A program made the position numbers and the translations under genes. The notes under the pieces are model-generated. The model saw nothing but the letters and a program-made list of their open reading frames with translations, searched no databases and was not told the origin of the DNA. 64,000 nucleotides of DNA from assembly GCA_015075175.1 (NCBI GenBank), contig JABTUV010000001.1:558001-622000 (forward strand), given 5' to 3'. The stretch is from a bacterium (GTDB lineage Bacteria; Hinthialibacterota; Hinthialibacteria; H5-UNCL2). Below are positions 11,501 to 32,082 of this stretch, in pieces. Position 1 is the stretch's first letter; each line of letters opens with the position of its first letter.

Positions 11501-14500
11501 GACTGGATGATTCGAGTCACCGGCGGGGACGTGGGCTTGACCGCCAAGTGGGCGCAGTTCAACTACAGCGTGGGACCGATCGACTCGTTCAACAACGCCC
11601 TGTCGCCGGACTTCTACGTGGATTACAGCCAGGAGCCGGTTCCGCAGTCGCCGGACGGGTATCCGGCAGGGCGTCTGCCGTTCCAGCAGATCAGCCGGCG
11701 GCAGATCGCGCGCATGGTGCTCGAGGACATGGAGGGCCGGGGCATCCTGGACCATCCCTCCTCGCCGCTGGGCGGGGCTCTGGTTGCGGTGATTCTGGAG
11801 AACGCCTTCCGCACGCCGCCCGAGCCCATCTATCAATTCCTGGCGGCGGACCTGGCGCACTCCAGCAGCAACGTGACGGGACCGCCCGACGCCTTCCCGG
11901 AGCGGGAGTTTCCGCTCATGTTCACCAAGGAGGGCTTCCCACTGGTCGAGCCGGACGGCACGTCGGTGAAGCCGATCATCGGCATCAATGTGACCGACGC
12001 TTCCGCCAGCGAGGGGTTTCTGGCGATGGAGACCATCGACCAGGTGCGGGTGAACTTCGTGAACGCGCCGCAAGCGTTCGGACGGTCGCGGTTCGAGCCG
12101 ATGGACCTGAACCCGCTGCGGCCCGCGGAGCAGGGCGACGGGCTTCCGCCGCCGGGCGTGGCGCTGTACATGGACCGCTGGCCGGCGCCGGGCGGCAACG
12201 CGGACGACGATGGGGACGGCGAGGACAACGACAACAACGTCAACACGCCGGCGATCGCAGACGGCATCGACAACGACGGCGACGGCCTGACCGACGAGGG
12301 CATCAACGAGGACGACATCGACTTCATCGACAACGACGGCGACGGCTTGACCGACGAGGACCCTCCGTTTCGCAACATCGTGCACGGGACGTTCGATCCG
12401 GGCGACGTGCTGGTACCGATCAACTTGTCCGCTTCCAACTGGAACCCCGATCCCAACGATCCGGTCGTGCGGGGCGGCGGCCATTACGTGATCCTGACGC
12501 CGCGCTACGGGCTGCCCATTCCTCCCAACGACACGGACCTGGACAACTTCGGTTACGACTTCTTCGTCACCGTGACGGCCAACCCGCGGATGGACAACTA
12601 CGACGCCTTTATCGCGTACATTCGTCCGGGCGACATTCTCTGTTCGGACGGGCGGAACCTTCCGGGGGCGCAGGTGCAGACGACGCCGGTAAAGGCGGCG
12701 CCGCCCAGCATCATCGAGCCGGCGGGTCTCTCCAACATTCTCACGCGCAACAGCCGCTCGATTCCCGTGTTGGGCATCAACACGCACGACAGCAACGACA
12801 TGTTCGATCCGCGCTTTGTTTACGATCTGGCCATGGGGCAGCCGGCGCCGCAGCGGCTGGCGGGATTCTGGCTGGTATTCCACGAGGAGCAGGATCCGGA
12901 ATCCAATCGCCCTTTGCGTTTCTTCACCCCCAGCGATCTGGCGCCGCTGCAGAATCTCCTGGTCCCCTCGCCCAATACCGGCCGGTTGATGTCGATGTCC
13001 GGCCTGGCCATCTATCGGGACGAACCGGGCAGCGACACCAACGGCGGTTTCGACGATCCCGACGATCCCGACGTGAACGTGCCGGACACGCCGGTGCTGT
13101 TGTCGGGCGAAGAGGCGTTCGGATTGCTGCAAGGCCGGCCGGGAGCGGTGCAGGTCTGGCTGGATCCGCCCCTTTACCAGGGGCGAAAGGACGTCAGTCC
13201 CATCGATCCCAATGATCCCGATCCCTATGAGCCGCTTCCGCCCGACGATCTGGGCGAGAACGCCGGCGCGGACTTTTTCGTCGTCCTGCGCACCAGCAAC
13301 ACCATCGCCCAGGGCGATGCGTTTTACGTGAGCCTGACCAATCCGGTGGCCTCCCAGTCCTCGACGGCGCCGGGATTCATATCCATGGCGCTCGTCTACT
13401 ATCCGCTTTATCGATATCACATGCTGAATCCGGGCGCTTCCCTGCTTGACCGATGGGATGTCAGCACCCAAACGGGGCGGTCCAGTCAGCTGGTGAATAC
13501 GCAGCCGTTCGACGCGGCGCCGACGCTGGTGTTCGAGCAGCCCAAGTTCATCCCCAACCAGACGGTTCCCACCAAGATTTCGACCAGTTACACGCTGGCG
13601 TGGACGGACAGCGATACCGAGCTGGACAACGACGGGGACGCCAGCACGTTCCCGCTGGTGAATCTGTACTACGCGCCCGCGGACGATCTGTCGGCGCGGG
13701 TGTTGATCAACACGGCGGGACCCATCAACGGCAGCCTGGACGGGCTTGACGACCAGTACGTCTGGGACATCCGGCGCGTGACGCCGGGCGTGTACCGGGT
13801 TCTGGGTACCATCGACGATCGGGCCAATCCGGTCGTGCTGGCGCTGGGCGGGCTGGTGGAAGTGGTGAACGTGCCGCCGGACATCACGTTGACGGCGCCG
13901 GTGGGAGAGAACTCGGTCGCGGGCGGGGTGGTGCAGGTGCGGTGGACGGACGCGGATCCGGAGAACAACGCGCAGATCACGCTGTACATCGTGCCGGCCA
14001 CGGGGAGCGCGACGGGGGCGACCGACGGCATCCTGTTGGCGACGGGAATTTCCGAGGATCCGGACGGCGCCGGCGATGTGTACGACGTGGACCTGGATCC
14101 CCTGCTGGCGTCGGGCGTGATCGAGCGCGGGATGACCTATTTCTTCCTGGGGTCCATTGACGACGGCGTCATGGGGCCGCAGCGGCCCAAGTTTTCGCGC
14201 AGTCCGGGGACGATCACGATCAAGGACGTACCGACGGTGCGCATCGTCAATCCCGGCACGCCTGCCTTGCAGGACCTCCTGCTCTATTACGACGTGACCT
14301 GGACGGATCGCGTTCCCGCGGGCCGCGGGGCGACGCTGGAACTCTTCTATTCGACCAGCAACTTCGGCTACGACAACAACGTGGCGGTGACCACGCCGAT
14401 CGTGTTGCCGGCGCAGAACCGGATCGTGCAGATCGTCGACGTGCAGGATCGCTTGAACAAGTCGTATCGCTGGCAGGTGTCGGACGGGGCGCAGCTGTTC

Positions 14501-16882
14501 CCCAACCGGCCGGCGCCGGGCGACTATTACATCTTCGGGCGGATTACGGACAATCTTGGGAATTTTACCGGTAACTTCAGCGCCGGGCGGCTGCGCATTA
14601 CCGACCACGCCCCTCAGGTATTCAGCCTGACGCAAGGGCCGGAGTACGCCTTGGAGTCGTTCACGATCCGGTGGGCGGGGATTTCCAACGATCCGGGCGC
14701 CAAGCTGGCTCTCTATTACGACGACGATGAAAGCGGCTTCAACGGTCGGCTGATCGCGCGGGTGGACTTGGGGAGCGCCTCCTATGCCTGGTCGTTGTAT
14801 CGCAACGGCGACGCGACCCAACGCAACGTGCCGGTGGGAAGTTATTTTCTCCACTACGAGGTCGAGGATCGCATCACCAATGCGGGCGGGCGGTATCGCT
14901 TTTACAGTCCGAACGTGGTGAGTGCGGGCGTGCCGGCGGTGGAGGGGCCGAAGGTGCTGTTATCCGACGGACAGGCGCTGGATCCGGCGTTGCCGGAGAC
15001 GTTTGCGGCCGGCAAGAGCCTCCTGGAGGGGTTGGTGTCGGGGACCCCGCGGGCGGTGCGCGCGGTAGGTTCGGACCGCGAGCATCCGGGGCTGTACGTG
15101 CTGGATGAGGACGGGGCGATTTACGCCATCGGGGAGGCTCCGCCGCTGGTGGGGCCGGATTTGTCGGGCGCGGCGGCGGTTGACTTGGAAAAGTCGCCGG
15201 CGGGCGGCTATTACGTGCTGGACCGCAACGGCGGGGTGCATGCGGTGGGGGGTGCGTCGAACCTGGGCAGCCTGTACCTTTCCGGCGGAACCGCGCGCGA
15301 TCTCGAGCTGACGCTCGACGGCAAGGGCGCCTACGTGCTGGAGAGCACGGGGCGCATCCATCGGCTGGTCAAGACCACGCTGGGCTACTCGTTCAACCTG
15401 GGTGCGCAGATTGCGCGCGATCTCAGGCTGGCGCCTGACGGCAACGGCGTCTACGTGTTGGACGGCTACGGCGGGGTGCACGTGGCGGGCAGCGCCCGCC
15501 GTTTCCCCGGCCCGGTGTTCGGCAGCGACATCGCGACCGACCTGTGGGTGGATCCGTCGGGCAGCAGGTATTACATTCTGGACAAGTTCGGGGCATTCAT
15601 ACCTGCGGGCGCATTTCGCAGTTGCCCAGCCTACGGCTGTCGCAGCCGATGGCGCGCGACCTCTTCGCCGCGGAGATCGGCGATCTGGGCTTGTTCTGGA
15701 CGCGCAAGTTCGCCGTCACCGTCGATGTGGACGCGCCCGCTGATCCGCAACCCGGACACGGACGGCGATTGGGTGGTGTGGGTGACTTCCGCGCCGGGCC
15801 GTCCGACCGGCGCCGACATCAGTTACGCGCGCATCAGCGACGGGGCGGCCAGTACCGTTTCCGTCGTCGGAGACCAGACGGATCCCGCCATCGACGGCGG
15901 CGTTTTGGTTTACACCAGCCGCGAGGGGCTGGACGACGATATCGTGATGGTTCCCGATCTGACGAGTCCGAACGTGCGCCACAACCTGTCGCGCAACTTC
16001 AGCGTGCCGGGCGGCACGAAGGGTTCGGACAACCAGCGCCAACCGGACGTGGCGGTGCGGCGGTTGACGACCGGCAGCGGGACTTACGCGCTGGGGGCGG
16101 TGGTCTGGTCGGCGTATGATTCGACCAACCGCGAGTGGGACGTGTATCTGCAACTGATCGCGCGCGACGGGGGGGGGCGCTTTGCGCCCGTGCCCGGCGC
16201 CATCTTGGAGATTTCCGCGGGAACCAACAACTCCGATCAGCGCGATCCCACCGTGGCCATCACGGACCTCTCGGAGGATCACGCGACGGTGATGGTCGTA
16301 TATTCGGACAATCGCAACGGCGATCTGGACCTCGTGTACGCGCTGGTGCAGGTGAAGGGTTCGGACCTGTCGACTTACCAGATCGAGGGCGGGGTGCTGG
16401 TGCAGGACCTGGTGCGGCGGGTGGGAGCGCAAGTGGATCCGCGCGTGGCGGCGGGGCAGGTGATCTTCACCGACGAGGCGGCGGGCGGGGATATCTACGC
16501 CATCCGCATGAACCTGGCCGATCCGCGGCATCCGACGCCGGCGGGGGCGGAGATCGCCGTGGCCACGTCGGCGCCGAGGCAGTTCGCGGGGCGGGTGGCG
16601 GAGGGCGACGTGATGGCCTGGATCGACCGCTACAACAGCTTCTTCGACGTGGTCGCGGGCGATCCTCGCATCGCCGTGTTCGATCGGCTGTTCCCCGGCA
16701 TGGTGCGTCCGCAGACGCTGGGGCTGGTCTCGCCGCTGAATGGTTTTGCGGAAGTGTACAGTCTGGAGTACGGCGACAAGCCGGCGGATGCGACCAAGTG
16801 GCTGGTGTGGTCGGAGCGGCGGGAGGGTCGCCGCCGCGTGGTCCTGTACGAGCAGTCGGTGCGGCCCGCCTCGGCGGAGTAG
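8600..16882 (+). CDS. Giant secreted protein A: D-rich repeats, shared modules, propeller and TolB-like C-terminus
   Basis: About 2,760 aa. The TTG at 8600 is chosen because AAGGAG lies seven bases upstream; it gives a signal peptide ending near residue 33 (VGMAWALGPVGA). Residues about 450-860 and 1200-1250 carry thrombospondin-3-like calcium-binding repeats (GIDNDGDGLTDEG). Two copies of the module shared with giants B and C start near 11960 and 12765 (IIGINVTD, VLGINTHD, ending in ADFFVVLRTSN). Ig-like segments (ITLTAPVGEN, VQVRWTDADPEN) cover 13870-14640. Five short propeller motifs such as YYVLDRNGGVHAVG lie at 15080-15600, and a TolB-like region (GGVLVYTSREGLDDD) runs to the end. Between about 15605 and 15735 the natural frame appears shifted by two compensating indels. 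No protease domain was recognised. It is the first gene of the secreted cluster. Confidence 0.85.
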   Translation: MKRFRETWGGMRGRLRGLVILVGMAWALGPVGAQPLDPNQLPDLGGATIHTDIAGQAHELPGAPFFPLFSFTLESNRQDDWSDPLLLGLGLNIREFPGPPPNPSGTPHIPFGAFSAFALAVDNPIAGVQGEFDSQDTIIERHFLHFTVRDEETGELVPIESRQDQVGWMFQPMGSIDVQMAGSRIVIWATDPNVGHPEFRNGPNDPNEPGTYGFGVYPAWVNHASLLDPIDEFFDPPIPMGGVFFPMDVIPTAEENFNQPRRYFVLLALTELMPDNAQVQVRLTNIDVLPSLNPVDDASGANGGPFIFPLRFTPAQLETAAAVLTNQGGHFSVVSNLGDTFYPGETMNTSGIPRFFNAATGQPGNLLPDSGPGYYPPFTIPLSDSAHRHQRIIIGPHQTPILHSQETVLQILALDLAANQVVGNPVLFGGFGLLFTRVGEYREILGDGIDNDGDAWMLQHNGLDDNLDGEDNDGNPATPNWADGIDNDGDGLTDEGIDDPMEGVDETFRLTMRGFNGIDDSPLDEEGNYQAELAPTPFGPLPIKDGIDNDGDGLIDEGIDELEEAIGLDPVQLAGRNDDKDFRTLDGLGIREVPFLFENGIDDDLTGLTDEAAEGTGPNVAILRYQANIFYNPDGSDHFYSDKALTGESIVDYVSRTFIIPIERGEHPDYPGFVRWATGPNNRLIAVTMMGDLPVLYPYQIVGFDNDYDNLYDEDPRDGMDNDGDGLIDEDVTWCPLIPAIDEEVLDYFVDGFTVFGDNRVGVYDEGADEYYIDFNMNGVFDQGIGDGDGVFLSEYRGGGRGFPSLRNGESYFQLGFVYPLDNDGDGEDNDNDPSTPPIANGLDDDGDGFTDEGFNEDVHDSRSDAPVFLNFDGSVPAIQVFQDNKTAGLIGQLDAADARMEVGAAPDPFNPQYIVVSMQGVQELLTLPAVDDFAWDYFVTLWLDSDDNASESTQDLFGNYGARYGDDWMIRVTGGDVGLTAKWAQFNYSVGPIDSFNNALSPDFYVDYSQEPVPQSPDGYPAGRLPFQQISRRQIARMVLEDMEGRGILDHPSSPLGGALVAVILENAFRTPPEPIYQFLAADLAHSSSNVTGPPDAFPEREFPLMFTKEGFPLVEPDGTSVKPIIGINVTDASASEGFLAMETIDQVRVNFVNAPQAFGRSRFEPMDLNPLRPAEQGDGLPPPGVALYMDRWPAPGGNADDDGDGEDNDNNVNTPAIADGIDNDGDGLTDEGINEDDIDFIDNDGDGLTDEDPPFRNIVHGTFDPGDVLVPINLSASNWNPDPNDPVVRGGGHYVILTPRYGLPIPPNDTDLDNFGYDFFVTVTANPRMDNYDAFIAYIRPGDILCSDGRNLPGAQVQTTPVKAAPPSIIEPAGLSNILTRNSRSIPVLGINTHDSNDMFDPRFVYDLAMGQPAPQRLAGFWLVFHEEQDPESNRPLRFFTPSDLAPLQNLLVPSPNTGRLMSMSGLAIYRDEPGSDTNGGFDDPDDPDVNVPDTPVLLSGEEAFGLLQGRPGAVQVWLDPPLYQGRKDVSPIDPNDPDPYEPLPPDDLGENAGADFFVVLRTSNTIAQGDAFYVSLTNPVASQSSTAPGFISMALVYYPLYRYHMLNPGASLLDRWDVSTQTGRSSQLVNTQPFDAAPTLVFEQPKFIPNQTVPTKISTSYTLAWTDSDTELDNDGDASTFPLVNLYYAPADDLSARVLINTAGPINGSLDGLDDQYVWDIRRVTPGVYRVLGTIDDRANPVVLALGGLVEVVNVPPDITLTAPVGENSVAGGVVQVRWTDADPENNAQITLYIVPATGSATGATDGILLATGISEDPDGAGDVYDVDLDPLLASGVIERGMTYFFLGSIDDGVMGPQRPKFSRSPGTITIKDVPTVRIVNPGTPALQDLLLYYDVTWTDRVPAGRGATLELFYSTSNFGYDNNVAVTTPIVLPAQNRIVQIVDVQDRLNKSYRWQVSDGAQLFPNRPAPGDYYIFGRITDNLGNFTGNFSAGRLRITDHAPQVFSLTQGPEYALESFTIRWAGISNDPGAKLALYYDDDESGFNGRLIARVDLGSASYAWSLYRNGDATQRNVPVGSYFLHYEVEDRITNAGGRYRFYSPNVVSAGVPAVEGPKVLLSDGQALDPALPETFAAGKSLLEGLVSGTPRAVRAVGSDREHPGLYVLDEDGAIYAIGEAPPLVGPDLSGAAAVDLEKSPAGGYYVLDRNGGVHAVGGASNLGSLYLSGGTARDLELTLDGKGAYVLESTGRIHRLVKTTLGYSFNLGAQIARDLRLAPDGNGVYVLDGYGGVHVAGSARRFPGPVFGSDIATDLWVDPSGSRYYILDKFGAFIPAGAFRSCPAYGCRSRWRATSSPRRSAIWACSGRASSPSPSMWTRPLIRNPDTDGDWVVWVTSAPGRPTGADISYARISDGAASTVSVVGDQTDPAIDGGVLVYTSREGLDDDIVMVPDLTSPNVRHNLSRNFSVPGGTKGSDNQRQPDVAVRRLTTGSGTYALGAVVWSAYDSTNREWDVYLQLIARDGGGRFAPVPGAILEISAGTNNSDQRDPTVAITDLSEDHATVMVVYSDNRNGDLDLVYALVQVKGSDLSTYQIEGGVLVQDLVRRVGAQVDPRVAAGQVIFTDEAAGGDIYAIRMNLADPRHPTPAGAEIAVATSAPRQFAGRVAEGDVMAWIDRYNSFFDVVAGDPRIAVFDRLFPGMVRPQTLGLVSPLNGFAEVYSLEYGDKPADATKWLVWSERREGRRRVVLYEQSVRPASAE

Positions 16883-16917
16883 GCGACGGTCCGCTTTTCA
16901 TGGAAGGAGTGAACTCG

Positions 16918-17574
16918 ATGATGTTGGCAAGACGCTTGCGCCAGGCTCTCGTGCCGGCGGTTCTCCTGGCGGCCGCTCCCCTGGTTTCCGCCACCCTCTA
17001 CAAGGAGGCCATCACGTACAACTCCCAGGTTCGCTGGTCGTCGTCGGTGTTTCCCGCCAAGGTGATCAGCAAGGAGTGTTTTCGGCATCCGCAACACGGC
17101 TACGTGATGACGCGGGTGGTCATCGAGTGCATCGAGGTGGGCGTGAAGGGGGACCTGGGCGATACCGTGGGCAAGCGGACGACCTTCAACCTCTTGGGCG
17201 GGACCAAGGACGGCGTGACCACGGCGGTCGCGGACAGTCCCTTCCTGGCGGTGGGGGACCGTGCGGTCTTCTTTCTTCAGAAAACGCAGGAGGGGACGAT
17301 CTTTCTCCCCTTCCTGGGGCATTCGGTGGTGCGCATCGAACAGGACGCGACGACCGGGCAGGACATGGTGGAAGTGAACTGGCCGGTCACGACCTACGGC
17401 AAGGCGACGGTGGGAGACTTGGAGAAGAACGCCCGGATCACGCGCAAGAGCCTGGCCAGCTTTCTGGAGGACGTGAAAGAGGTTGTGCGCCTGGAAGAGG
17501 AACGGGCCAAGGAGAAGGCGGAGCTTGAGCGGCGGCTCCAGGAGCAACAGCAAAAGGACGACAGCGGCCGATGA
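16918..17574 (+). CDS. Small secreted protein S1, partner of matrixin giant B
   Basis: A 218-aa protein with a signal peptide (RLRQALVPAVLLAAAPLVSA) starting at an ATG eight bases after AGGAG. The mature part is beta-rich: FPAKVISKEC, YVMTRVVIECIEVGVKGD, then FNLLGGTKDG and VGDRAVFFL. The C-terminus is a charged, probably coiled-coil helix (EEERAKEKAELERRLQEQQQ). The protein at 25813-26481 has the same order of elements: an exported beta domain, a conserved LGG turn and a 'VGDxxxFFL' strand. Its function is unknown. Its stop overlaps the start of the matrixin protein (ATGA), so the two are probably translated together. A role in folding, inhibiting or delivering the protease is inference. Confidence 0.75.
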   Translation: MMLARRLRQALVPAVLLAAAPLVSATLYKEAITYNSQVRWSSSVFPAKVISKECFRHPQHGYVMTRVVIECIEVGVKGDLGDTVGKRTTFNLLGGTKDGVTTAVADSPFLAVGDRAVFFLQKTQEGTIFLPFLGHSVVRIEQDATTGQDMVEVNWPVTTYGKATVGDLEKNARITRKSLASFLEDVKEVVRLEEERAKEKAELERRLQEQQQKDDSGR

Positions 17575-19619
17575 CAAAACACATGCCATTCCAGCGGACC
17601 ATCGTCATGCTCGTGGCGCTTGGCCTCGGGATTGCGGGCCTCTCGACTCCGTCTTGGGGAGGGGCGGCGCTGCTTTATCACAATCTGGAGGATACCCCGG
17701 CCCCCACGGTTCCCGGCATTCACGTGGACCCGGAGGGGGAAATCCGGTTCATGCGCTGGTATCCGCCGCAGCTGCCCGTCCCCATGTATTTCAACGACCA
17801 GGCCATTCCCGGGCGGCCTGCGGCGCAGGTGTTCGCCGTGCTCAGCGAGTCGCTGGACCGGTGGACGCGGGTTCCCGAGTCCAGTTTCGCCTGGCGCAAC
17901 GCCGGCACCACGCCCATCACCAACGCCGCCTTGGACGGCGTGAACGTCTTCACGTTCGTCGATTTCAACATTATTCCGCCCAACAGCCCGATTCTGGGCG
18001 TCACCATGTGGAATTTCACCCGCACGCCCGACGCCAACGGACCGGAGGGGCACTTCATCGACGTGGACATCGTCTTCAGCCCGTTCGAGTTGTGGGGTCT
18101 GGACGACAACACCCCGCCCGGGCAGTTCAACCTCTTGGCGGTCGCGGTGCACGAGTTGGGGCACGCCTTGGGCCTTTCCCATCATCCCAACATGGGCGGC
18201 ATCATGTTTCCCGTCTATCAGCAGGCGGAAGTGGGGCAGCCGTTCCCGTTCCCGGACGACAGTAGCATCATGAGCCTCCTGTATCCGCAGGATCCGCCGC
18301 TGAGTACCGCGTTCGGCACGATCAAGGGCCACGTGAAGGACGAGGCGGGCAATCCCATCTGGAACGCCTGGATCACGGCGGTGCGGGAGGACGGGACGCG
18401 CAACCCGGACGGTTTCGATTCCGTCGGCGCCTGGAGCCTGTTGAAGGGGGAGTACACGCTCAAGCGGGTGCCGCCCGGGCGCTACTGGCTGCAGATGGGG
18501 CCGCTGGTACCTTCCATCCGCGGCAACGATACGGGCTTGGGCGGATACGGCGTGTACGGCTCGACGTTTTTTAATCTCCTGGACCGCTTGAACAACGTGG
18601 TGGGCTTCGTGCGCGTGCGGCGCGACTATCCGGTCGAATGGTTTGACAACATCGCGGAGGCGAACGCCAACCAGCCGCCGTTCGGGGCGACGGTGCTGGA
18701 GGTGCGGGCGGGACAGGTTTACGAGAACATCGACTTCGTGGTGGGCATCGAGTTGCCGGCGCTGCCGGACGTCGAGCCCAACAACAACTTCGCAGAGGCG
18801 ATCCTGACCACCTACGGGGAGGTCAAGGCCGGGCGCATCGACCCGATACCGGCGGGGATCAATCCCGACGTGGACTTTTACGCCTTCGACGCGGCGGTGG
18901 GAGACCTGTTTGTGGTGGACGTGACGGCGCTCACGCCGCTGCTTCTGCCCTCGCCGCTGAAACCGCGGCTCACGCTGTACGATCCCGACGGCGTGGTGAT
19001 CGTGGTGCGCGACGCGGTGGGATCGGAAGTGCTGATCCCGTATCGATCGCCGCGAGCGGGCCGCTACTACGCCAAGCTGGAGGACCAGCGCGGACTGGGC
19101 TTCGGCGGACCGGACTACGTCTATCGTCTCGAAGTGGATCTGGCGGTCGCCCACCGGCTGCCGGAGGAGACCAACCTCCTGGCGCCCGCCAAAGGGCCCG
19201 CCGCCCAGGATTCCGAGCCGGTCGCGGTCGTCGGCCTGGACTTGGTGGACAATTACGGGGACGCCTACGGGGACGCCTACATCAGCAAGGTGGTGGCGCA
19301 TTTCTCGAATTTCAGCAACCGGCAGATGATTACGCCCGCCGACTTCGTGCCGGTAGCGCTGAACGAGCTTTCCGGGGTTTCATTGTGGCGGGACGTGAAC
19401 GGGGACGGCAGCTACAACTACACGCGGGGCGTGCGCAACGACGACGACGAGTTCATCCCGCTCTCCGACATCGTGGTCATCCCGGAACCGGACGGCTTCA
19501 CGGTCGAGATGTATCCGCAGGTGGCGCCCGACGGGACCGGCTCGCGCGCGGCAATCTGCCGGGCCTGGACGACGGAGGACGGTTCGATTACTTCGTGGTC
19601 ATCCGTCCGCACGACCTGA
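17571..19619 (+). CDS. Giant secreted protein B, N-terminal part: matrixin metalloprotease, CarboxypepD_reg-like and PPC-like domains (frameshifted)
   Basis: Translation starts at the ATG overlapping the S1 stop. A signal peptide (IVMLVALGLGIAGLSTPSWG) is followed by a matrixin-type zinc protease. The full motif HELGHALGLSH begins at residue 194, and a likely Met-turn lies in SIMSLLYP near residue 234. A carboxypeptidase-regulatory-like fold (GTIKGHVKDEAGNPIWNAWI) follows at 249-310. A pre-peptidase C-terminal-like domain (DVEPNNNFAEAIL through YYAKLEDQRGLG) lies near 401-523, then the first shared module (VVGLDLVDN, SGVSLWRDVNGDG). Near 19548-19552 one base seems lost: the frame ends 20-odd codons later, while the homology continues in the -1 frame to 25798. 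Joined, giant B is about 2,742 aa. Confidence 0.85.
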   Translation: MTKHMPFQRTIVMLVALGLGIAGLSTPSWGGAALLYHNLEDTPAPTVPGIHVDPEGEIRFMRWYPPQLPVPMYFNDQAIPGRPAAQVFAVLSESLDRWTRVPESSFAWRNAGTTPITNAALDGVNVFTFVDFNIIPPNSPILGVTMWNFTRTPDANGPEGHFIDVDIVFSPFELWGLDDNTPPGQFNLLAVAVHELGHALGLSHHPNMGGIMFPVYQQAEVGQPFPFPDDSSIMSLLYPQDPPLSTAFGTIKGHVKDEAGNPIWNAWITAVREDGTRNPDGFDSVGAWSLLKGEYTLKRVPPGRYWLQMGPLVPSIRGNDTGLGGYGVYGSTFFNLLDRLNNVVGFVRVRRDYPVEWFDNIAEANANQPPFGATVLEVRAGQVYENIDFVVGIELPALPDVEPNNNFAEAILTTYGEVKAGRIDPIPAGINPDVDFYAFDAAVGDLFVVDVTALTPLLLPSPLKPRLTLYDPDGVVIVVRDAVGSEVLIPYRSPRAGRYYAKLEDQRGLGFGGPDYVYRLEVDLAVAHRLPEETNLLAPAKGPAAQDSEPVAVVGLDLVDNYGDAYGDAYISKVVAHFSNFSNRQMITPADFVPVALNELSGVSLWRDVNGDGSYNYTRGVRNDDDEFIPLSDIVVIPEPDGFTVEMYPQVAPDGTGSRAAICRAWTTEDGSITSWSSVRTT

Positions 19620-22600: not shown

Positions 22601-25600
22601 TACACGGTGCTGGACGTGCGGGAGTTCGGACAGCCGGCGATTCCGCGCGGGGCCAACTCGGAGTTCACCCTTTCCGACCTTGCGTCGCTCTCCAACTCGA
22701 TGCTGTCGGGCCTGGCGCTATACAAAGACGTGAACGTGGGGCCGATTTCGCAGAACGCGGTGTTCGACGCTTCCGACGAGCTGGTCCCGATGCTGCCGCC
22801 GGTCGCCTCGGGGCTGGACGTGACGCTGAGGTTCCTGGCGCCCTACCCGGACGTGCCGGACACGGACCTGGGACTGGACTCGGGCGCGGATTATTTCCTG
22901 GTATTTCGCACCAGTTCGTCGATCAACATCGGGGACGCCTTCGCGGTCGCCATTCCGCGCAACGGGCTGGTTTTCGCCAACGACGAGTATCAGAGTCCTT
23001 CGCCCGCGGGCAACAGCACGGCGGTGGTGTGGGCCAACCGGCGCTTCGTGCCGTCGCTGGTGATCACGCGCCCCTTGACGCCGCTGGAGCCGGGCGATCC
23101 GTCCTACACCATCCAGTGGGAGGACGATGATCCCGACAACGACGGTCCGACGGTGGCGCTGTATTACATCCCCGAGGTGGACATCGGGCAGCCGACGGGC
23201 ACGCGCACGCTGATCGTGGAGAACCTGCCCGCCATCCCGGACGGCATCTTCGACCGCTTCACGTGGCCGACGACGGGTCTGCCGCGGGGCGAATATCGCA
23301 TCATCGGCATCATCCAGGACAACGCGGGCAACGTGGTGGAAGCGACGTCGCCGGGCACGATTCTTCTCGCCAGCGACGTGGCCAATATCACCATTACCGC
23401 GCCCGCGCTGACCCAGACGGAGGAGCAGCGCACCGCCATCGGCGGCCGCTACCGCATCCGCTGGACCGACAACGACGAGGACGCCAACAGCCGCCTGCGC
23501 CTGTTCTGGGACGCCGACACCACGCCCGACGATCCGCGCGGCGTGCAGATGAACTTCATCTCCGGCAACATCAACGTGCTGGACAAGGAGAACTCGTTCC
23601 TGTGGACCATCCCGGTGGCGGTGATGGAGCAGTATCCGCAGATCCAGGTGGGATACGTACAGACGGATCCCGATCTGGACCTGCCGATCATCCGCTACGC
23701 CGACGCGCCCGTCATCATCCGGGCGGCGACACCGTCGGTGTCGGTGGACTATGCCTTCAACCTGGCGGATCCGCAGGCGCTGCGCGAGGCGCTGGCGCGC
23801 CAGACCATCCCGGTGCGCTACGTCGCCAACGACATCGACAGCAACGGCCCCAACACCGCCAGCGTCAACATGTACTACGTGGACGCCTCGCTGATCGGGC
23901 CGGCGACGGGCAAGGTGACGCTGGCGCTCCTGGACGAGCTGGCCGCCAACGGCCAGTATCTGCGCTCCACGCTGGGCGTGACCGCCGTCGACCTGCCCGA
24001 GGACCCCGCCAACGGCGGACTGGTCTTCGACTGGGACATCTCGACCGTGCCCAGCGGGACCTACGGCATTATTGCGACCGTGACCGATCGTGAAGTCATC
24101 TCCGACGCGGACCTCGTTTACGCGACCGCGCCGGCGTTCCTCACGATACCGCCGCTGCGCTTCCCCTCGCGCTTCCTCTTCGAGCGCTTCGAGCAGAGCT
24201 CGGCGCTGGCCACGGACTTTCTGGGCGCGGGAGAGACGCAGACGCTGCTCTTCGCCAAGTCGGGGCGGCTGCTCGTGCTGACCAAGACGGGGCTGCAGGC
24301 GTTCAACCGGCATCTGTTGCCGACCGCCGACTCGGGCCAGGTGGTTTCATCGCCGGCGGCGGGCGATTTCGACGTCAACCGGCCCGGAACCGAGCTGGTA
24401 GTGGGCGTGTCGGGTTCGCTGGGTCCGTCCCTCCTCTTCGTGGCGACGGACAGCGAAGGCCACGCGGCCACGCGGCTGATCCCGTTGGACGACAGTCCGC
24501 TGAAGCCGGGCGTGGATTCGACTCCCGCCGTGGGCGACCTGAACGGGGACGGCGAGATGGACGTGGTGGTCAAGCTGCGCAACGGCAAGATCGTCTCGCT
24601 GGCGGGCGACGGGGCGGGGAACTTCTCGCCGCTCTGGTCGGTGGATTCGGCGGCTCAGGCGACGCTGGGGCTGGACGGTTCGCCCGCCATCGGCAACGTG
24701 CGCGGCGACGGGGACCTGGAAGTGGTGGTGGGAACGGCCGACGGCAAGGTGCTGGTGATCGAGACGCTGCCGCAGCTGTCCGTGACCACGCTCTTCTCCG
24801 CGCCCATGCTGGGCAACGCCGCGCCGCAGGTGTTCTCGTCGCCGGCGCTCTACGACATCGACGGGGACGGGCTGGACGAAATCTTCATCGGTGTGGCGAC
24901 TTCGTTGCGGGGCGCGCTGTACGGCCTGAATGGGGACGCCACCAGCGTGGAGACGCTGTCGGTCGTGACCAAGCCGGGGCAGGATCCGGGGACGGTGCTG
25001 GCGGTCAGCGACGTGCCCGACACGGCGCCGGCGCGGTCGCTTCTGCCGATTCGCGTCTCGCCCGCCTTCGGCGACGTCTCCGGCGACGGGCGGCCGGATC
25101 TCGTGTTCGCCAGCGAGCGCTACCTATACGCTTACAGTTTCCGGCCTACCGAGCGCGCCGCCGACCTGCTCTTCTACCGCGAGGCGCCCAATTATGTGTC
25201 GGGCGCCAAGTTCACGGAGAGCTCGCCCATCCTGGCCGATCTCATTACCGGCGAGGGCGCGCAGGAGATCGTGATCGGCGCGGGCGACCAGCTCTTGATC
25301 CTGACCTACGTGAACGGACAGGTGAAGAACAGCGTGGCCATGTCGGATCCGAGCCTGCAAGAGCGGCTGGCCTTCGACCTAACGGGTCCGGGCCGAATCG
25401 CAACCACGCCGCTGATCGCCGACGCGGTCGGCGACCCGTTGGGGCAACTGGAGCTGGTGCTGGTCGTGGCGGCGGAGACGGGCGGGCTGATCGACGCGCT
25501 GGACGCCTTCGACGGGACGCTCGTGGCCAACCGCAACGTCTCCTGGCCGATGCTGAAGTGCGGTCCGTCGCGCACGGCGCGCTTCGGCGAGACGGAGGCC

Positions 25601-25798
25601 AAGACCAATCTGCCCTTTGACCTGAATAAAGACGGCGTCCTGGACTATCGCGACCTGATCCTGTTCGGCCTGTCGTGGTCGGCGACGCCGGGCGACGGCA
25701 GCGCCCTATCCGGCGCGCCGCGCACCGACTTCAACAAGAGCGGCCGCGTGGACGCCGACGACCTGTATCTCCTGATCGACGTCTGGACGCGATACTGA
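19553..25798 (+). CDS. Giant secreted protein B, C-terminal part: shared modules, Ig-like, FG-GAP-like propeller and dockerin
   Basis: This is the continuation of the matrixin protein in the -1 frame. Homology resumes at NLPGLDDGG and FDYFVVIRPHDLMQHGESF; an annotation tool might instead start at the ATG 19619, which overlaps the upstream stop as TGATG. It carries four and a half copies of the shared module (starts near 19850, 20425, 21625 and 22255), each with a 'GADYFLVFRTS' type strand. Ig-like segments (YTIQWEDDDPDNDG) cover 23040-24130. An FG-GAP/VCBS-like propeller (VGDLNGDGEMDVVVKL, ALYDIDGDGLDEIFIG) covers 24130-25590. A type I dockerin closes the protein: DLNKDGVLDYRDL and DFNKSGRVDADDL, both with calcium-binding spacing. 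Dockerins bind cohesin domains, so the protease is probably tethered at the cell surface or in a complex. No cohesin was recognised here. Confidence 0.85.
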   Translation, partial: NLPGLDDGGRFDYFVVIRPHDLMQHGESFIVQIPVDGLTVIDQFTPIVVNTADPLPALPQTLICDIVQYVVFTDPQNIDNFDWPGTGYFAHPLEVGRPELIFGLNTWGNKGEGYRISKLTVDLRNVLDFEPGDLAFLNNTEDSGVSLYVDKPGTADGVFEVELDERVPLKFPETRIRKATDDAGTYYEVVLVPETPLEVPDTDLASQSTENADFFLALRLSGLVRDGDLLRVETAVRGQGPVVFTEGSSTRRVLNTGTRPQAHLLRISPQPEFKFTSLVKPGDTIGRESRSRAVIGINVQDYGAHYTNLGQDTKIWFDWLFDSIRVDFLDDGVPGNFTLDDLRPLNNDVGLDVYWGEPLSGVALYRDDNTGLANQELGSPGWDPDDDGRVGEELHNNMDDDLDGLTDEDIGDFDAAGIKGQFDEFDDYIPFTVGRMFTTNGPSIADFNRYFTGPTASQLPTGTGFSVNFTMRILRRELHFCGDEYVPDGFILNEPYASGRADVLSDIYFAYHAVLAGEHPLFVTGFGGFTQMLSCTSRALTGVGAGVNFVATPHENGVPDDPCNHQVVVTGPPLPCTNRSGGEPVIQVTYVHGIEIPDDDFVGGPNDGDDFYVVLRTSSTLSNGDDFAVRIAPGGIRYSRYESPAIFNLTPRANRHGITTPLLRADVKIQARLTDLTSEGQFISPGALDEDPFELFGLNMDLGGSREGVQPGVSPERLSGFILEIFSPAGTPADQRVVVSNDAAISHFNPIGPGANSGILFFEDHPTGSGRDGVFDPQIDPRVDVKADPEITGSGTVGDPYRIRIELDRTVSVYYDDFTGQGQFTNGDDFFVAVRASANMKPGTRFVARLRAPNFSGTTALEPVGPSGVETNVIRAAVPTQILSRIESQREIVDANLSPRVNAFAINVRDDGTRQRLDSLKVQLIPVQPSRFPRVVGVGGQSIRSYTLPGHPPQITVLLTSNLGQGDVIQVVNPANVNAILAQANGPSPAGGSNITVNVVGDTFAIILNNVTGGANYTVLDVREFGQPAIPRGANSEFTLSDLASLSNSMLSGLALYKDVNVGPISQNAVFDASDELVPMLPPVASGLDVTLRFLAPYPDVPDTDLGLDSGADYFLVFRTSSSINIGDAFAVAIPRNGLVFANDEYQSPSPAGNSTAVVWANRRFVPSLVITRPLTPLEPGDPSYTIQWEDDDPDNDGPTVALYYIPEVDIGQPTGTRTLIVENLPAIPDGIFDRFTWPTTGLPRGEYRIIGIIQDNAGNVVEATSPGTILLASDVANITITAPALTQTEEQRTAIGGRYRIRWTDNDEDANSRLRLFWDADTTPDDPRGVQMNFISGNINVLDKENSFLWTIPVAVMEQYPQIQVGYVQTDPDLDLPIIRYADAPVIIRAATPSVSVDYAFNLADPQALREALARQTIPVRYVANDIDSNGPNTASVNMYYVDASLIGPATGKVTLALLDELAANGQYLRSTLGVTAVDLPEDPANGGLVFDWDISTVPSGTYGIIATVTDREVISDADLVYATAPAFLTIPPLRFPSRFLFERFEQSSALATDFLGAGETQTLLFAKSGRLLVLTKTGLQAFNRHLLPTADSGQVVSSPAAGDFDVNRPGTELVVGVSGSLGPSLLFVATDSEGHAATRLIPLDDSPLKPGVDSTPAVGDLNGDGEMDVVVKLRNGKIVSLAGDGAGNFSPLWSVDSAAQATLGLDGSPAIGNVRGDGDLEVVVGTADGKVLVIETLPQLSVTTLFSAPMLGNAAPQVFSSPALYDIDGDGLDEIFIGVATSLRGALYGLNGDATSVETLSVVTKPGQDPGTVLAVSDVPDTAPARSLLPIRVSPAFGDVSGDGRPDLVFASERYLYAYSFRPTERAADLLFYREAPNYVSGAKFTESSPILADLITGEGAQEIVIGAGDQLLILTYVNGQVKNSVAMSDPSLQERLAFDLTGPGRIATTPLIADAVGDPLGQLELVLVVAAETGGLIDALDAFDGTLVANRNVSWPMLKCGPSRTARFGETEAKTNLPFDLNKDGVLDYRDLILFGLSWSATPGDGSALSGAPRTDFNKSGRVDADDLYLLIDVWTRY

Positions 25799-25812
25799 TG
25801 GGAGGAAACTCG

Positions 25813-26481
25813 ATGCGACGCATACTGATCTTACTGGGGCTGTCGGCGGCGCTTCATCTGCCCGCCGGCGCGCTCCTGCTGGCGCCGGTTCCCTTCGCGG
25901 ACCTGATCGACGACGCCAAGGCCATCGTGCTGGGGGAGGTCGTCGCCCAACACTGCGAAAGGAACGCCGCCAACGGCCGCATCTATACCTATTACACCGT
26001 GAAGGTTGAGTCGGATGACAAGTCGGTCTCCGACGCCTCCGCCCCCAAGCAAGTGGTGGTGCGGATGCTGGGGGGTACGGTCGGCGAGACCAGCCTGGTG
26101 GTGTCGGGGCAGAAAATGCCGGACGTGGGGGAGAAGGTGTATCTGTTCCTGGAGACGGATACGCTGAATGCATCGCACTATCGCGTGCTGGGGATGGTGC
26201 AGGGATATTTCCAGGTGGTGACGGACGCGCGCACGGGAGAGACGCGGGCGGTGGGAATCGCACCGGAAGCGGCCGCGCTGGATCCCAAGACGCGGGCCCA
26301 GTATCGCAAGAAGGGCGGCATCGACCTGTCGGAGAACGTTCCGCTGGAGGCGGAGTTGGCGGAGATGCGCGCGGCGGTGCGCCAGCAGGTGCTGCGCGCG
26401 CAGAACCCCCGCTACCAGGTCGAGAAGGCCAGGCAGAAGGCCGGCGGACTGCCCAAGCGCCCCGCCGCCCCTGGGAAGTAA
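25813..26481 (+). CDS. Small secreted protein S2, paralogue of S1
   Basis: A 222-aa protein with signal peptide RILILLGLSAALHLPAGA; the ATG follows GGAGG by seven bases. The mature part reads AIVLGEVVAQHCERNAANG, YTYYTVKVESDD, VVVRMLGGTVGETS and VGEKVYLFLET, then a helical basic tail. S1 has the same plan, and both genes share the leader sequence AACTCGATG just after the ribosome-binding site, which supports duplication of an 'S plus matrixin' unit. It lies 14 bases after giant B and nine bases before giant C. Such small secreted proteins beside matrixin genes have no function I can name with confidence. Confidence 0.75.
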   Translation: MRRILILLGLSAALHLPAGALLLAPVPFADLIDDAKAIVLGEVVAQHCERNAANGRIYTYYTVKVESDDKSVSDASAPKQVVVRMLGGTVGETSLVVSGQKMPDVGEKVYLFLETDTLNASHYRVLGMVQGYFQVVTDARTGETRAVGIAPEAAALDPKTRAQYRKKGGIDLSENVPLEAELAEMRAAVRQQVLRAQNPRYQVEKARQKAGGLPKRPAAPGK

Positions 26482-26490: not shown

Positions 26491-26763
26491 ATGTCACAAG
26501 GTAAGGCCAAGATGACCAAGCGACTTGTTGTACTTTCACTCCTCTCGCTCTGTCTCGGCATGTCGCAGTGGGCGCAGGCGTTCACGCACTATCGCGCCGG
26601 CAGCGGCGCGACGGCGCGCTGGGCGCGCGCGTCCGCCGCCGACATCGTCTATTTTTTCAATCAGGTCGGCACCCCTGACATTGCGGGCAACGGGGAATTT
26701 GACGTCCTCAAGGCCGCCTTGCACGACTGGGAGACCGTCTCCACCTCGTTCGCCGGTTACTAA
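26491..26763 (+). pseudogene. Giant C, N-terminal fragment ended by an in-frame TAA
   Basis: This is a 90-codon reading frame with a signal peptide (LVVLSLLSLCLGMSQWAQA), followed by the start of a matrixin-like domain (FTHYRAGSGATARW, KAALHDWETVSTSFAGY). It ends at TAA 26761-26763. The very next codons, in the same frame, continue the domain (DPQQHPLTAVGFNPGDGL) and stay open to 32082. The stop therefore interrupts one protein. The first ATG (26491) lacks a clear ribosome-binding site; the ATG at 26512 is an alternative. Confidence 0.72.
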
Positions 26764-29700
26764 GATCCGCAGCAGCATCCCTTGACCGCGGTGGGATTCA
26801 ATCCGGGCGACGGGTTGACCGTGCTCAGCTTCACCGGCCCCTTCATCGATCCCGATGTTCCTTTCAACGTGCTGTCCTTCACCACGCTGGTGGTCCAGCA
26901 AGTCGGGCAGCAGCCGGTGATCGTGGAATCCGACACCATCTTCAACGACCAGTTTTTCTGGACCGAGAACACCACCAATCTTCAGGTCACGCCGCAGCAG
27001 TGGAGCCTTTACGCGGCGGCGCTGCACGAGGGCGGGGCGATTCTGGGCCTGGGCAGCACCTACCTGCGCGCGCCGCTCCTTGACCTCAACCAGGTGTTTT
27101 TCCGCCCCGACCTGTCCGAGCAACTGTCGTTTGCGCCCATCATGTTCCCGTGGACGATTTCCAGCGCTTCGGCGCCCTTTACCGGCATCAACGCGATTGC
27201 GCGCGACGACGAGGTGGGCGTCTCCGAACTGTATCCTTCCATCGACTATTACGACCAGGTGGGAACCATCAAGGGGCGGCTGTTCGACGCGCAGAGCGGC
27301 AAGCCGGTCTTCCCCGTGCACGTGACGGCTTTCAACGCCAACACGCGCCAGCCGATCGTCAGCGAAGTGAACAGCAAGGACGGCAGTTTCCAGGTGCGGG
27401 GCCTGCCGGCGGGTCCGTACTTTCTTCTGTTCGAGCCGGCGCCGCCGCTGTTCCTCTTTTCCCCCTATTTCAGCGTGACGCCGGTGAACTTCATCCCCAC
27501 GTTCTACCAGGGGGTCTTGCGCGCGCCCACGGCCGGCATCATCCAGATTCCCGCCAACGCGGAGATGAAAATCGTCCAGGTCGCCGCCGGCAAGACCACC
27601 TCCGGCGTCGAGCAGGGGCTGATTCTCGGCTTTACCGGCAACGACCGGTTCGAGCCCAACGATGAGCTTTTGCTGTCGCCGGAGATTACGCCCACCAGCG
27701 ACCCCACGCAGGGTCCCATCGCAGTGATCCAGGACGTGGACAACAACCTGCGCGACCTGGACGTGTACCGGTTTTTCGCCAACCAGGGGGACCTGGTGCG
27801 CATCCGGGTGCTGGCGCGGCAGCTGGGTTCGGCGCTGGACGCGCGCGTGCGGCTTTACTCGGGCGCCGCGCTGGAACGCTACGCCGAACAGAATCCGAAT
27901 CAGCCCGACCCCACTCGCATGTTCCGCGACGTGCCGCCGCTGGCCCTGGAGGACAATGACCCCGAGACCGGCGCGCTCGACCCCGATCTGACCTATCGCG
28001 TGCAGGAGGGCGGCGCGTTCGTGGTGGTGGTGGACCGTTCGCCCCTGCAGGCCGTGCCTGCGCGCACCGACCCGCGCATCGACTATTACCAACTGGTGAT
28101 CGAGATTCTCTCGGGGGTGGTTCCCATCCCGCCCGAGTCGGATCCGTTCCCGGTGCTGTCGCTCAACCTGTCCGCGCAGGAGCTGGGGCTTAATCCGTCC
28201 AACTCGCAACTTTTGGAGATCACCTTATCCATCCGGGACTACAACAACGACGGGGACATCACCTACGATCCGGGCAATCCGCTGGCGGTCAACGACTTCA
28301 AGGATCCGATCACGGCCCAGGGCAGCCTGACGCAGAGCGGGGTGGCGCTGTATCGCAACGACGGGCCGGAAGTGGGCAAGTTCGACTTTAACATCGATAA
28401 TCCGGCCGCGGGCGACCGGCCGGTGTCGCTGTCGGAGATTCGCGTGATCGAGCACAGCGGTGAGGAGATTCGCGTCACGCTGGTTTTGGCGGGGCAGGAG
28501 CTGTTGCCCGCCGAGGCGGATAACACGGTGGACTACTGGATCGCGCTGCGCTCCAGCCTCAACCTGGCGCAGGGGGACGACTTCACCGTCAGCATTCCGG
28601 CGGGCGGGATCAAGGTGCGCGATTTGGTGGGCGGCCAGCCGCGGGATCTATCGGTGTTCTCCAGCGTCTATCCCAGCGCGGAAAAGCAGAACATCTACAG
28701 CGGGGACATCGTGAAGTTCACCATGCCCCTGCAGCCGTCGCCGGACGGCCAGCGCATCAACGCGCGTTCCACGCCGACCGCCGTTTTGGGCCTCAACGTC
28801 AAGGGCGCCGCGGGCGAGGAGTATTGGCTGCACCAGATAGACGTGACACTGGTGGGAACCAACGCGCTCTTGTTCCTGCGCGCGTTAGATTACTCGTCGG
28901 TGATTCAGAACGAGCTGTCCGGCACTCTGTTGCCACAGTTGACCGCCGGTCAGGACACCTTCCGGCTCAACGATCTCCTGGACCTTTCGGTGAGTGGACG
29001 CGGCGGCATCGGCATTTATCGAGACAATGACGGCCTGGACGCCCAGGGCAACCCGGTGGGCAAGGACGGCATGTTTGAAGAAGACGTGGACCTTCCCATC
29101 GAGCTGGAGTCGAGTGAAAACCCCCAGCTGGGACGCAGTGAGATTCCGCGCCGGCTGGTGGGGGCGCTGGTCCCGCCGTACATGGACAAGCTGCATGAGT
29201 TCGGTTCGACGCTTGACCTCGTAGACGCGCAGGCTTACGTGTTGACGCTGACGCTGAGGCGCGAGGGCCAGCAGGACAGGCTGCGTATCCCGGATACCGA
29301 TCAGGCTTCCAGCAACAGCGGCGGAGCCGATTTTCACGTGGTGGTTCGCACCAGCGGCAAGGTTTCCGCCATGGACACGTTCCTTCCCATCGTGCAGGTG
29401 GGCGGGGTGCGCGTGGCCAACGGCCTCAACGTACCGCCCGTGCCGGGGGAGGAGGTGGTGTCGGTCCGGTCCCTGTCGCGCCTGGACGACAGCTCCATTC
29501 CCCAGACCCGCTCCCTGATCTGCCGGCCCCGGCCCGAGATCACCGTCTCGGACCTTACGAGCGAGACCAGCGTTCTCGTGTCGGAAGGCGAGGACACGCG
29601 CCTGCCCGTGTTCGGCATCAATGCCAACGACCGCGGCCAGAACGCCTTCCGCATCTTCGCCACGGGCGACTACGTCACCGACCGGTATTTCAACCAGTCG

Positions 29701-32082
29701 TACACCTTTGACGCCTTTACGGTCGTGATCACGCAGGTGCTGCCGGGCCAGCCGGCGCGCGAGGTCTATCCCGCCAGCGGCACACTGGATGAGTTTGTGG
29801 ACATTTTGCAGTACTTGGACCGCAACCCGGTGATTCCCGCCGGCGGCATGAACCTTTACTTCGACGACGACACGCCCATCGGCGACGGCATCGACAACGA
29901 CGGCGATTTTCTCATCGACGAGGAACTCGTCAACAACATCGACGACGACATGGACGGGGCCATTGACGAGGACGTGGGCGACGGCGATCCGGCGGGACTG
30001 AACGGCGTCTGGGACCCGGTGGACGACGTGCATCCCGGCGGGCGCTTCTTCCGCTTGAGCCGCCGCATCAATCCCATCATTCCGCCGGCCGGCGATCCCA
30101 TCACATATACCCGCCGCCACGTTTTCAGCAACGCCAACTACCGGCTGCACGATCCGCTGACGGTCACCGAGGTGAACAACGCGCTGCGGTTGCGCGTGCC
30201 GCTGCTCATGACGGTCCAGGAGGAGGGCCGCGAGTTCTCGTTCAGCGAGTACTGGGGCGTGATCAACGATCCGCTCACGATCAATTTTGACAACGTGTTC
30301 ATTCGCACCGACTTCCAGCCGATCTGGACCGGTGTCACCGCCTTCTCCAGCGCCGCCGAAGGCGAGATCGTGTACAATGGTCCCGGCGAGATCAAGGATG
30401 CCGACACCGTGCCTCTTTTCGAGATGGCCGGGTACTATGTGGACTTCCCCGACACGGTAAACCCGCAGACCGACTTCCCCGTGCAGACGACCTACAGCGC
30501 CGTGGTTGAGTTTCCTGACGACGACATCGGGGCGACCGCAGGCCCGGATTACTTCCTGGTGGCTTCGGCCAGTCCCTCCGCTACGCCGGAAGTGCTGATT
30601 CGTTTCGAGTTCCCCTCCGGCGGCGTGGAGTACAGCGTGTTTCAGTCGCGCTGGGTGAACTTCAACGGCGCCTTTCCGGGGACCGGCGGGAATCGGGTCA
30701 AGACGGGGCCGATCCGAGTGCAGGGGCAGGCGATCATGCCCACGCTGCGCATCATTCAGCCCGGGCCGGGCGCCAACATTGCGACCAAGGACCAGACCTT
30801 CAATATTACCTGGCGGGCGGACGATCCCGACAGCATCGCCGAGATCAGGCTCTACCTGGACACGGACGCCATCGCCGGCAACGGGCTGATCGCCGGCTCG
30901 ACGGTGACGCGCATTGAGTTGACCGCCTCGCCCCTGCGCGAGGGCATCAACCCCGAGTTTTTCATCGTCAATCTCAGCCAGGTCCTCAGCGATCCGCGCT
31001 ATCGGCACCTGGGCTTTTCGCTGTCCGATCCCGCGCTGCGGTTCTACGTGGTCGCGGAGATCTACGATCGCGTGGTGGACGGGCAGCCGGATCCCGAGCG
31101 ATCGGTGACGGTGTACTCGAACGGGTACATCACGCCGTTCCGGTTGTCGGCGGCGGGACTGGTAGCTGATTATATCAAGCTGCATCGCAACGGGACGCTG
31201 TCGTCGTTCGGCGAGGCGCCCATCATCTTCAACTTCCAGCAGACGGCCAACCTGGCACTGGACTTCGAGATCACGCAGTCGGGCGGGGGCGCCTTGGGCC
31301 TCATGTCGGACGGGCAGGTGCGGGCGTCGGGCAACGTCGAGGGCCTGAACGGCGTGGTGTTCGGACAGGGCCTGGTGGACCTGACGCGGCTGGCGGGCGG
31401 CTTGCGCCAGGTCGCCGACGCGGTAGACATGGAGGTGGATTTCGGCCGCGGCGGGTTGGTGATCCTGGGTCGTTCGGGTGAATTGGCCGCTTACGGCTCG
31501 CTGTATCCCGAGAGCTTCATTGAGGCGCTTTCCAGCCAGGCGCAGGCGCGCGTGGCGGCGCTTTCCGGCGTCACCGCCGTCGATGTCGAGCTGGCGCCCG
31601 GCTTTGCCGGCGGCTACGTGCTCCTCTCCAACGGCGAAGTGCTGCGCGGGGGGACGGCCGGCGGTACCGGCAGCGGCGCCTCCAGCGGCGCTCCCGCCGT
31701 GGATCTAACCCTCCTGCCCGCGGGCAACGGTTACTACATCCTTTATGCGGATGGAACCGTCACCGCCGCGGGCGACGCCTCCACCGAGCTGGCGCGCCTG
31801 GCCACCCCGCTCAACCGCGCCGACGCCAGGGACCTGGAGGTCACGTTCAGCAGTGAAGGCCCGGGCCTCCTCATTCTGCGCGGGACCGGCCAGGTCGTCG
31901 CCTACGGCAGCGTGGAGATCGGTTTCGACGCGACCCGCTCGGAGAATCTGAGGACTACCGTGCCATCAGGTGTTCGGTTCCGCCGGTCAGGATCGCCAGG
32001 CGGTCCGGGAAGTGCTGGAGGCGCTCTATACGGCCTATACCAACGAGGACATTGGCAGTTTCATGGCCCGCGTGGCGACTGA
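26764..32082 (+). CDS. Giant secreted protein C, main part: degenerate matrixin, CarboxypepD_reg, PPC, shared modules, Ig-like and propeller
   Basis: It continues the frame of the upstream fragment after the TAA; no credible independent start exists. The equivalent of the matrixin helix reads LHEGGAILGLGS. The first His and the Glu are kept, but the second and third zinc histidines are replaced, so it should not bind catalytic zinc normally. Next come GTIKGRLFDAQSGKPVFP (CarboxypepD_reg-like) and NDRFEPNDELLLSPEI with DVYRFFANQGDLVRI (PPC-like). Three shared modules start near 28165, 28780 and 29606, with the D-rich insert GDGIDNDGDFLIDEE at 29880. An Ig-like segment (TFNITWRADDPDS) sits at 30790. 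A propeller-like region (LHRNGTLSSFGEAP, LLILRGTGQVVAYGS) covers 31170-31925. Near 31945-31975 the frame shifts and the protein continues in the next entry. There is no dockerin. Confidence 0.8.
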   Translation, partial: DPQQHPLTAVGFNPGDGLTVLSFTGPFIDPDVPFNVLSFTTLVVQQVGQQPVIVESDTIFNDQFFWTENTTNLQVTPQQWSLYAAALHEGGAILGLGSTYLRAPLLDLNQVFFRPDLSEQLSFAPIMFPWTISSASAPFTGINAIARDDEVGVSELYPSIDYYDQVGTIKGRLFDAQSGKPVFPVHVTAFNANTRQPIVSEVNSKDGSFQVRGLPAGPYFLLFEPAPPLFLFSPYFSVTPVNFIPTFYQGVLRAPTAGIIQIPANAEMKIVQVAAGKTTSGVEQGLILGFTGNDRFEPNDELLLSPEITPTSDPTQGPIAVIQDVDNNLRDLDVYRFFANQGDLVRIRVLARQLGSALDARVRLYSGAALERYAEQNPNQPDPTRMFRDVPPLALEDNDPETGALDPDLTYRVQEGGAFVVVVDRSPLQAVPARTDPRIDYYQLVIEILSGVVPIPPESDPFPVLSLNLSAQELGLNPSNSQLLEITLSIRDYNNDGDITYDPGNPLAVNDFKDPITAQGSLTQSGVALYRNDGPEVGKFDFNIDNPAAGDRPVSLSEIRVIEHSGEEIRVTLVLAGQELLPAEADNTVDYWIALRSSLNLAQGDDFTVSIPAGGIKVRDLVGGQPRDLSVFSSVYPSAEKQNIYSGDIVKFTMPLQPSPDGQRINARSTPTAVLGLNVKGAAGEEYWLHQIDVTLVGTNALLFLRALDYSSVIQNELSGTLLPQLTAGQDTFRLNDLLDLSVSGRGGIGIYRDNDGLDAQGNPVGKDGMFEEDVDLPIELESSENPQLGRSEIPRRLVGALVPPYMDKLHEFGSTLDLVDAQAYVLTLTLRREGQQDRLRIPDTDQASSNSGGADFHVVVRTSGKVSAMDTFLPIVQVGGVRVANGLNVPPVPGEEVVSVRSLSRLDDSSIPQTRSLICRPRPEITVSDLTSETSVLVSEGEDTRLPVFGINANDRGQNAFRIFATGDYVTDRYFNQSYTFDAFTVVITQVLPGQPAREVYPASGTLDEFVDILQYLDRNPVIPAGGMNLYFDDDTPIGDGIDNDGDFLIDEELVNNIDDDMDGAIDEDVGDGDPAGLNGVWDPVDDVHPGGRFFRLSRRINPIIPPAGDPITYTRRHVFSNANYRLHDPLTVTEVNNALRLRVPLLMTVQEEGREFSFSEYWGVINDPLTINFDNVFIRTDFQPIWTGVTAFSSAAEGEIVYNGPGEIKDADTVPLFEMAGYYVDFPDTVNPQTDFPVQTTYSAVVEFPDDDIGATAGPDYFLVASASPSATPEVLIRFEFPSGGVEYSVFQSRWVNFNGAFPGTGGNRVKTGPIRVQGQAIMPTLRIIQPGPGANIATKDQTFNITWRADDPDSIAEIRLYLDTDAIAGNGLIAGSTVTRIELTASPLREGINPEFFIVNLSQVLSDPRYRHLGFSLSDPALRFYVVAEIYDRVVDGQPDPERSVTVYSNGYITPFRLSAAGLVADYIKLHRNGTLSSFGEAPIIFNFQQTANLALDFEITQSGGGALGLMSDGQVRASGNVEGLNGVVFGQGLVDLTRLAGGLRQVADAVDMEVDFGRGGLVILGRSGELAAYGSLYPESFIEALSSQAQARVAALSGVTAVDVELAPGFAGGYVLLSNGEVLRGGTAGGTGSGASSGAPAVDLTLLPAGNGYYILYADGTVTAAGDASTELARLATPLNRADARDLEVTFSSEGPGLLILRGTGQVVAYGSVEIGFDATRSENLRTTVPSGVRFRRSGSPGGPGSAGGALYGLYQRGHWQFHGPRGD

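Follow-up and report, generated by a model that had tools for sequence, protein, structure and literature searches.

The closest described counterparts of the proteins considered here include two systems. On the one hand, a domain of the T. forsythia sialidase NanH has been described as a sialoglycan-binding module and constitutes family CBM93, equivalent to PF14873 (PMC9472817). On the other hand, the giant adhesin MpAFP contains a region II made of about 120 identical extender repeats of 104 aa, and all of its regions need millimolar calcium to fold (PMC3492233).

This report focuses on a module repeated in three giant proteins, here named A, B and C, encoded in a window of 64,000 nucleotides (the whole stretch of DNA that was analysed; contig JABTUV010000001.1, positions 558,001 to 622,000) from an uncultured bacterium of the class Hinthialibacteria. 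We lean towards the reading that the units form one unnamed family with a CBM93-like fold and work as calcium-rigidified spacers in extracellular giant proteins.

The Giant Proteins and Their Surroundings

The three proteins are encoded one after the other on the same strand, and their main parts are as follows.

8405..16882, + strand: giant protein A, an open frame with coding-type codon G+C; units A1 and A2, followed by stretches that look Ig-like and propeller-like by eye
17571..25798, + strand: giant protein B, two overlapping frames; five units, Ig-like stretches, FG-GAP repeats and a dockerin-like tail (Pfam matches)
18060-18266, + strand: matrixin protease of B (Pfam match)
25616..25777, + strand: dockerin-like C-terminus of B (Dockerin_1, E 0.016, below the cut-off)
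26512..32082, + strand: giant protein C, with a CarboxypepD_reg-like part, three units and a Big_7-like part; in-frame TAA at 26761

Codon-position G+C is of the coding type in all three giants (0.65/0.43-0.45/0.85-0.88). The reading frame is broken by a frame change in B at 19545 and by the in-frame TAA in C at 26761, and further frame changes were seen by eye near the ends of C (about 31975) and A (about 15600). Coding character persists on both sides of the breaks, as in B, where G+C is of the coding type on either side of the change near 19545, and the frame of a C-type relative in genome G005 is open; the breaks may be long-read assembly errors.

Besides its FG-GAP repeats, B gives weaker Pfam matches to CarboxypepD_reg, PPC and dockerin, and the HExxHxxGxxH motif of its matrixin is intact. 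By eye, the N-terminus of C (26512-28100) resembles a degenerate matrixin without the full motif, as does that of the G005 relative (L034, from 12854), and may be a pseudoprotease copy of which B retains the motif. In a C-type protein of G004, the first unit directly follows a signal-peptide-like stretch. Between B and C lies a small protein (25807-26481) with a signal-peptide-like start (MRRILILLGLSAALHLPAGA), for which a Pfam search at E 0.01 returned no match. Just upstream of A (5284-8300) are genes resembling KdsC (E 1.6e-27) and, both weakly, LptC and LptA; LptA is matched weakly, too, in the vicinity of a C-type giant in G004 (L040, 322-924) and G006 (L037, 11267-11932). Neither a surface anchor nor a secretion system was identified for the giants.

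One Family of Repeated Units

The preliminary description of this DNA, made by eye, had counted ten units, of which A holds two, B five and C three, with a recurring order of motifs running from a VLGINVxD-like strand through SGVALYRD, an Asp-rich insert, PDTDL and GADFFVVLRTS to GDxFxVxIPxxGI. All ten units were recovered within about 30 bases of the starts then given, with the motifs in the same order, and A may hold one or two more in degenerate form.

11969..12706, + strand: unit A1, leave-one-out 58 bits; pairs with a G005 unit at 100%
12755..13396, + strand: unit A2, leave-one-out 90 bits
19215..19684, + strand: unit B1, split by the frame change near 19545 into halves in different frames (E 6e-20 and 2e-9)
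19841..20308, + strand: unit B2, leave-one-out 62 bits; structure predicted
20417..21493, + strand: unit B3, leave-one-out 85 bits
21620..22141, + strand: unit B4, leave-one-out 57 bits
22241..23002, + strand: unit B5, 90-99 bits; extra insert before the FTLSDL strand
28138..28635, + strand: unit C1, leave-one-out 45 bits; structure predicted
28765..29433, + strand: unit C2, leave-one-out 60 bits; pairs with a G005 unit at 98%
29590..30654, + strand: unit C3, leave-one-out 28 bits; groups with G005 and G004 units at 94%
8795..9475, + strand: weak candidate for a degenerate unit of A (E 4e-4 over 34 residues)
9818..11560, + strand: weak candidate for a degenerate unit of A that carries a long Asp-rich insert (E 0.03; motif order by eye)

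The module had been given a length of 150-350 aa. Its core is in fact 140-160 aa, to which inserts are added at recurring sites. A first alignment brought out N, G, G, P and D columns in common, and identity between units of different positions is low, at about 20-30%. No DNA-level tandem repeat covering the units remains, which marks them as old duplications.

That the units are homologous, as had been proposed, was borne out with leave-one-out HMMs, in which the tested unit is excluded from the profile (12 units, eight from the window and four from a fourth giant protein, D, described below). Real units score 28-104 bits, whereas the best score among 200 shuffles per unit ranges from 3.5 to 13 bits. 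It is scarcely credible that the likeness merely reflects convergence of low-complexity, Asp-rich stretches: such stretches do give weak HMM matches by themselves in A and D, but compact units that lack Asp-rich arrays can be aligned over their whole length, and the groups that units form by position are highly supported in the tree. Convergence was rejected for the main units on the margin over the shuffles, the two degenerate units of A being excepted.

Database Matches and Predicted Fold

The preliminary description could name no domain for the module, and scans of the units against Pfam and NCBIfam likewise gave none over the cut-off. A PDB sequence search with two profiles returned nothing at E up to 10. 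A single one of 25 diverse members gave a weak match to GEVED (PF20009; E 0.0032), and the other members gave none. The sequence family is undescribed as far as Pfam and NCBIfam go, and the fold predicted for it is already known.

The AlphaFold2 model of B2 is a beta-sandwich in which most of the core has a pLDDT of 83-94, with dips; that of C1 is also a beta-sandwich, of moderate confidence. In the B2 model, the strands include 94-98 (within SGVSLYVD), 163-167 (DFFLALR) and 178-183 (LLRVETA). The models thus place the conserved motifs on strands of the same sandwich and not in separate folds, in agreement with the single domain family that had been proposed. The fold itself is not new: for each model, nothing else scores as high as the PF14873/CBM93 domain of sialidases. 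In a second-look structural alignment against the PDB, the ten best matches of B2 were all N-terminal domains of GH33 sialidases (Z 11.2-11.6), the next fold reaching 7.4. The same domain supplied the ten best matches of C1 (Z 8.2-8.6, next fold 5.7), a Z of 8 being modest for this model and near the level reached by unrelated models. The B2 and C1 models share most of their alignment rows and are therefore not fully independent. Foldseek alone ranked the sialidase domain weakly for B2 (E 1.7e-3) and placed no sialidase in the top 50 for C1. Comparison with viral protein structures gave nothing convincing.

At the level of profiles, the PF14873 HMM gave no match anywhere in this genome, with E values up to 1 allowed; it does find a protein of G013, a genome of the same class. 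With hhalign, the units and PF14873 were linked at a probability under 1%, using a profile that held few PF14873 members. A weak intermediate in L050 reaches 11 bits with the module HMM, which is above all shuffles for one profile but not for another, and a search of two phyla for more PF14873 members or intermediates yielded no significant link. Since both models best match the CBM93 fold and the profile comparisons are not significant, what we claim is a shared fold rather than common descent: on the evidence of the predicted models, the units have the fold of the PF14873/CBM93 domain.

Cohesins appear among the lower structural matches (Z 4-7), the genome contains eight cohesin matches and B ends in a dockerin-like stretch, all of which would suit units serving as cohesin-type docking modules for partner proteins. 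The sialidase domain nevertheless fits the models better than cohesin does, and we regard such a docking role as very improbable. Membership of the units in the cohesin family itself (PF00963) was rejected, as its HMM matches eight other places in the genome and no unit, and Pfam scans of the units gave none. As a separate matter, the cohesin matches, on G000 contigs C1, C5 and C34, and the dockerin-like stretch in B could belong to a cohesin-dockerin assembly.

The Asp Hairpin and the Proposed Function

Few features of the family are as well conserved as a hairpin of the form Y-x-D(n)G-x-F-D-x-x-D: among 25 diverse members, its residues are kept in 23 (D), 23 (G), 24 (F), 22 (D) and 25 (D), respectively. 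Its loop sits between strands in the B2 model. The EF-hand spacing D-x-[DN]-x-[DN]-G-x-[hydrophobic]-D-x-x-[DE] is near-canonical in a minority of relatives, such as YRESNGNGVFDAGD in L061, while units of the window mostly have other loop lengths. In three units, the loop carries a long insert.

12176..12385, + strand: Asp-rich insert of A1 with two IDNDGDGLTDE motifs, between Y-M-D and G-T-F-D (read from sequence)
20654..20809, + strand: Asp-rich insert in the B3 loop (read from sequence)
29866..30003, + strand: Asp-rich insert of the C3 loop (IDNDGDF, IDDDMDG), at the same place in G005 and G004 (read from sequence)

These inserts, of 46 to 70 residues, are placed exactly between the first Asp and G-x-F/W-D. 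The conserved Asp loop and the Asp-rich inserts fit a calcium-bound stalk. Judged from sequence, the EF-hand-like hairpin of each unit probably holds a calcium ion, and in A1, B3 and C3 an Asp-rich IDNDGDG array would have expanded the loop and probably binds further ions. In function, the units would be spacer modules stiffened by calcium, which, with Ig-like and propeller domains, would build long giant proteins presumably exported to the outside of the cell; giant B would present a metalloprotease at its start and a dockerin-like tail at its end.

The main rival to calcium-stiffened spacers is glycan binding, in which the units would be carbohydrate-binding modules distantly related to CBM93 and their array would give avidity for polysaccharides or cell-surface glycans. 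Their models match a domain that others have shown to bind sialoglycans, and a conserved Arg in the RTS strand (19 of the 25 members) could point into a cleft, an arrangement suggested for CBM93. However, a common fold shows no function, CBM93 is without a profile link to the units, the strongest conservation lies at the Asp hairpin and not at surface aromatics or arginines, and units of different positions have diverged to the low identity given above. We consider glycan binding rather unlikely, and prefer the calcium-stiffened spacer.

Distribution and History of the Arrays

The family had been described from the three giants of the window, but it extends well beyond them. A fourth giant, D, of 3825 aa and overlooked at first, lies on another contig (C5) of the same genome. 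Four of its units are clear, and a fifth, D1, seems to be interrupted by an Asp-rich insert of about 700 aa. D1 occupies L021 11665-14439 (- strand), and its insert contains many DVDGDGxLD-type repeats. Units were found in all 14 sampled genomes of the class Hinthialibacteria and in 15 of the 372 sampled genomes outside it, the latter spread over ten family-level groups; searches of plasmids, phages and viral contigs returned no relatives. Among the genomes outside the class, G042 has 20 matches: 14 fall within a single open frame (L077, contig C2, 48111-91103; 22,286 aa), and the other six within a frame of 10,454 aa on contig C40. The module is thus used repeatedly in giant open frames of unrelated lineages, with up to 14 copies per frame.

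In a tree of 37 units, those at the same position in different genomes group at 93-100% for A1, A2, C1, C2, C3, D2, D3 and D5, with D4 reaching 68%, and the deep branches are without resolution. This grouping of equivalent positions across genomes indicates that the arrays are old and colinear, their order having been kept since before the families split. B3 falls together with the C3 group at 94%; the loop insert is therefore probably older than the separation of the genes for B and C.

A broader and more tentative proposal, which we put forward as a possibility, is that this unnamed, widespread family supplies a fundamental module from which several uncultured lineages build giant proteins, and that its single calcium loop serves as an evolvable insertion site for whole Asp-rich calcium arrays, stiffness being adjusted for each unit in turn along an array that is ancient and fixed in position.

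Comparison with Known Systems

The family merits a Pfam entry, which would annotate blank parts of giant proteins both in a little-known phylum and in ten or so other family-level groups of bacteria. The predicted calcium loop hosting inserted calcium arrays is a directly testable idea. If the units and CBM93 had the same ancestor, a sugar-binding domain of sialidases would be linked to structural repeats of giant proteins.

Among described domains, PF14873/CBM93 (7qxo, 4fj6, 4bbw, 6mrx) is the nearest in predicted structure, with an rmsd of 2.6-3.0 over 138-144 residues for B2 and an alignment over 121-126 residues for C1. On visual comparison, strands and motifs also follow the same order, LYY... 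and G-x-NYFW of PF14873 standing against LYRD and G-x-DFFV of the units. However, the EF-hand-like loop and the inserts of the units are not seen in the PF14873 members compared, and the sialidase domain is single and lies next to the sialidase, whereas the units described here are repeated in giant proteins. The likeness to cohesin (PF00963) is that of a beta-sandwich. With the extender repeats of MpAFP, the units share the arrangement of tandem beta-sandwich domains in a giant protein. Calcium dependence is known for MpAFP and predicted here, and the repeats of MpAFP are many and identical, whereas the units of these giants are few, diverged and fixed in position.
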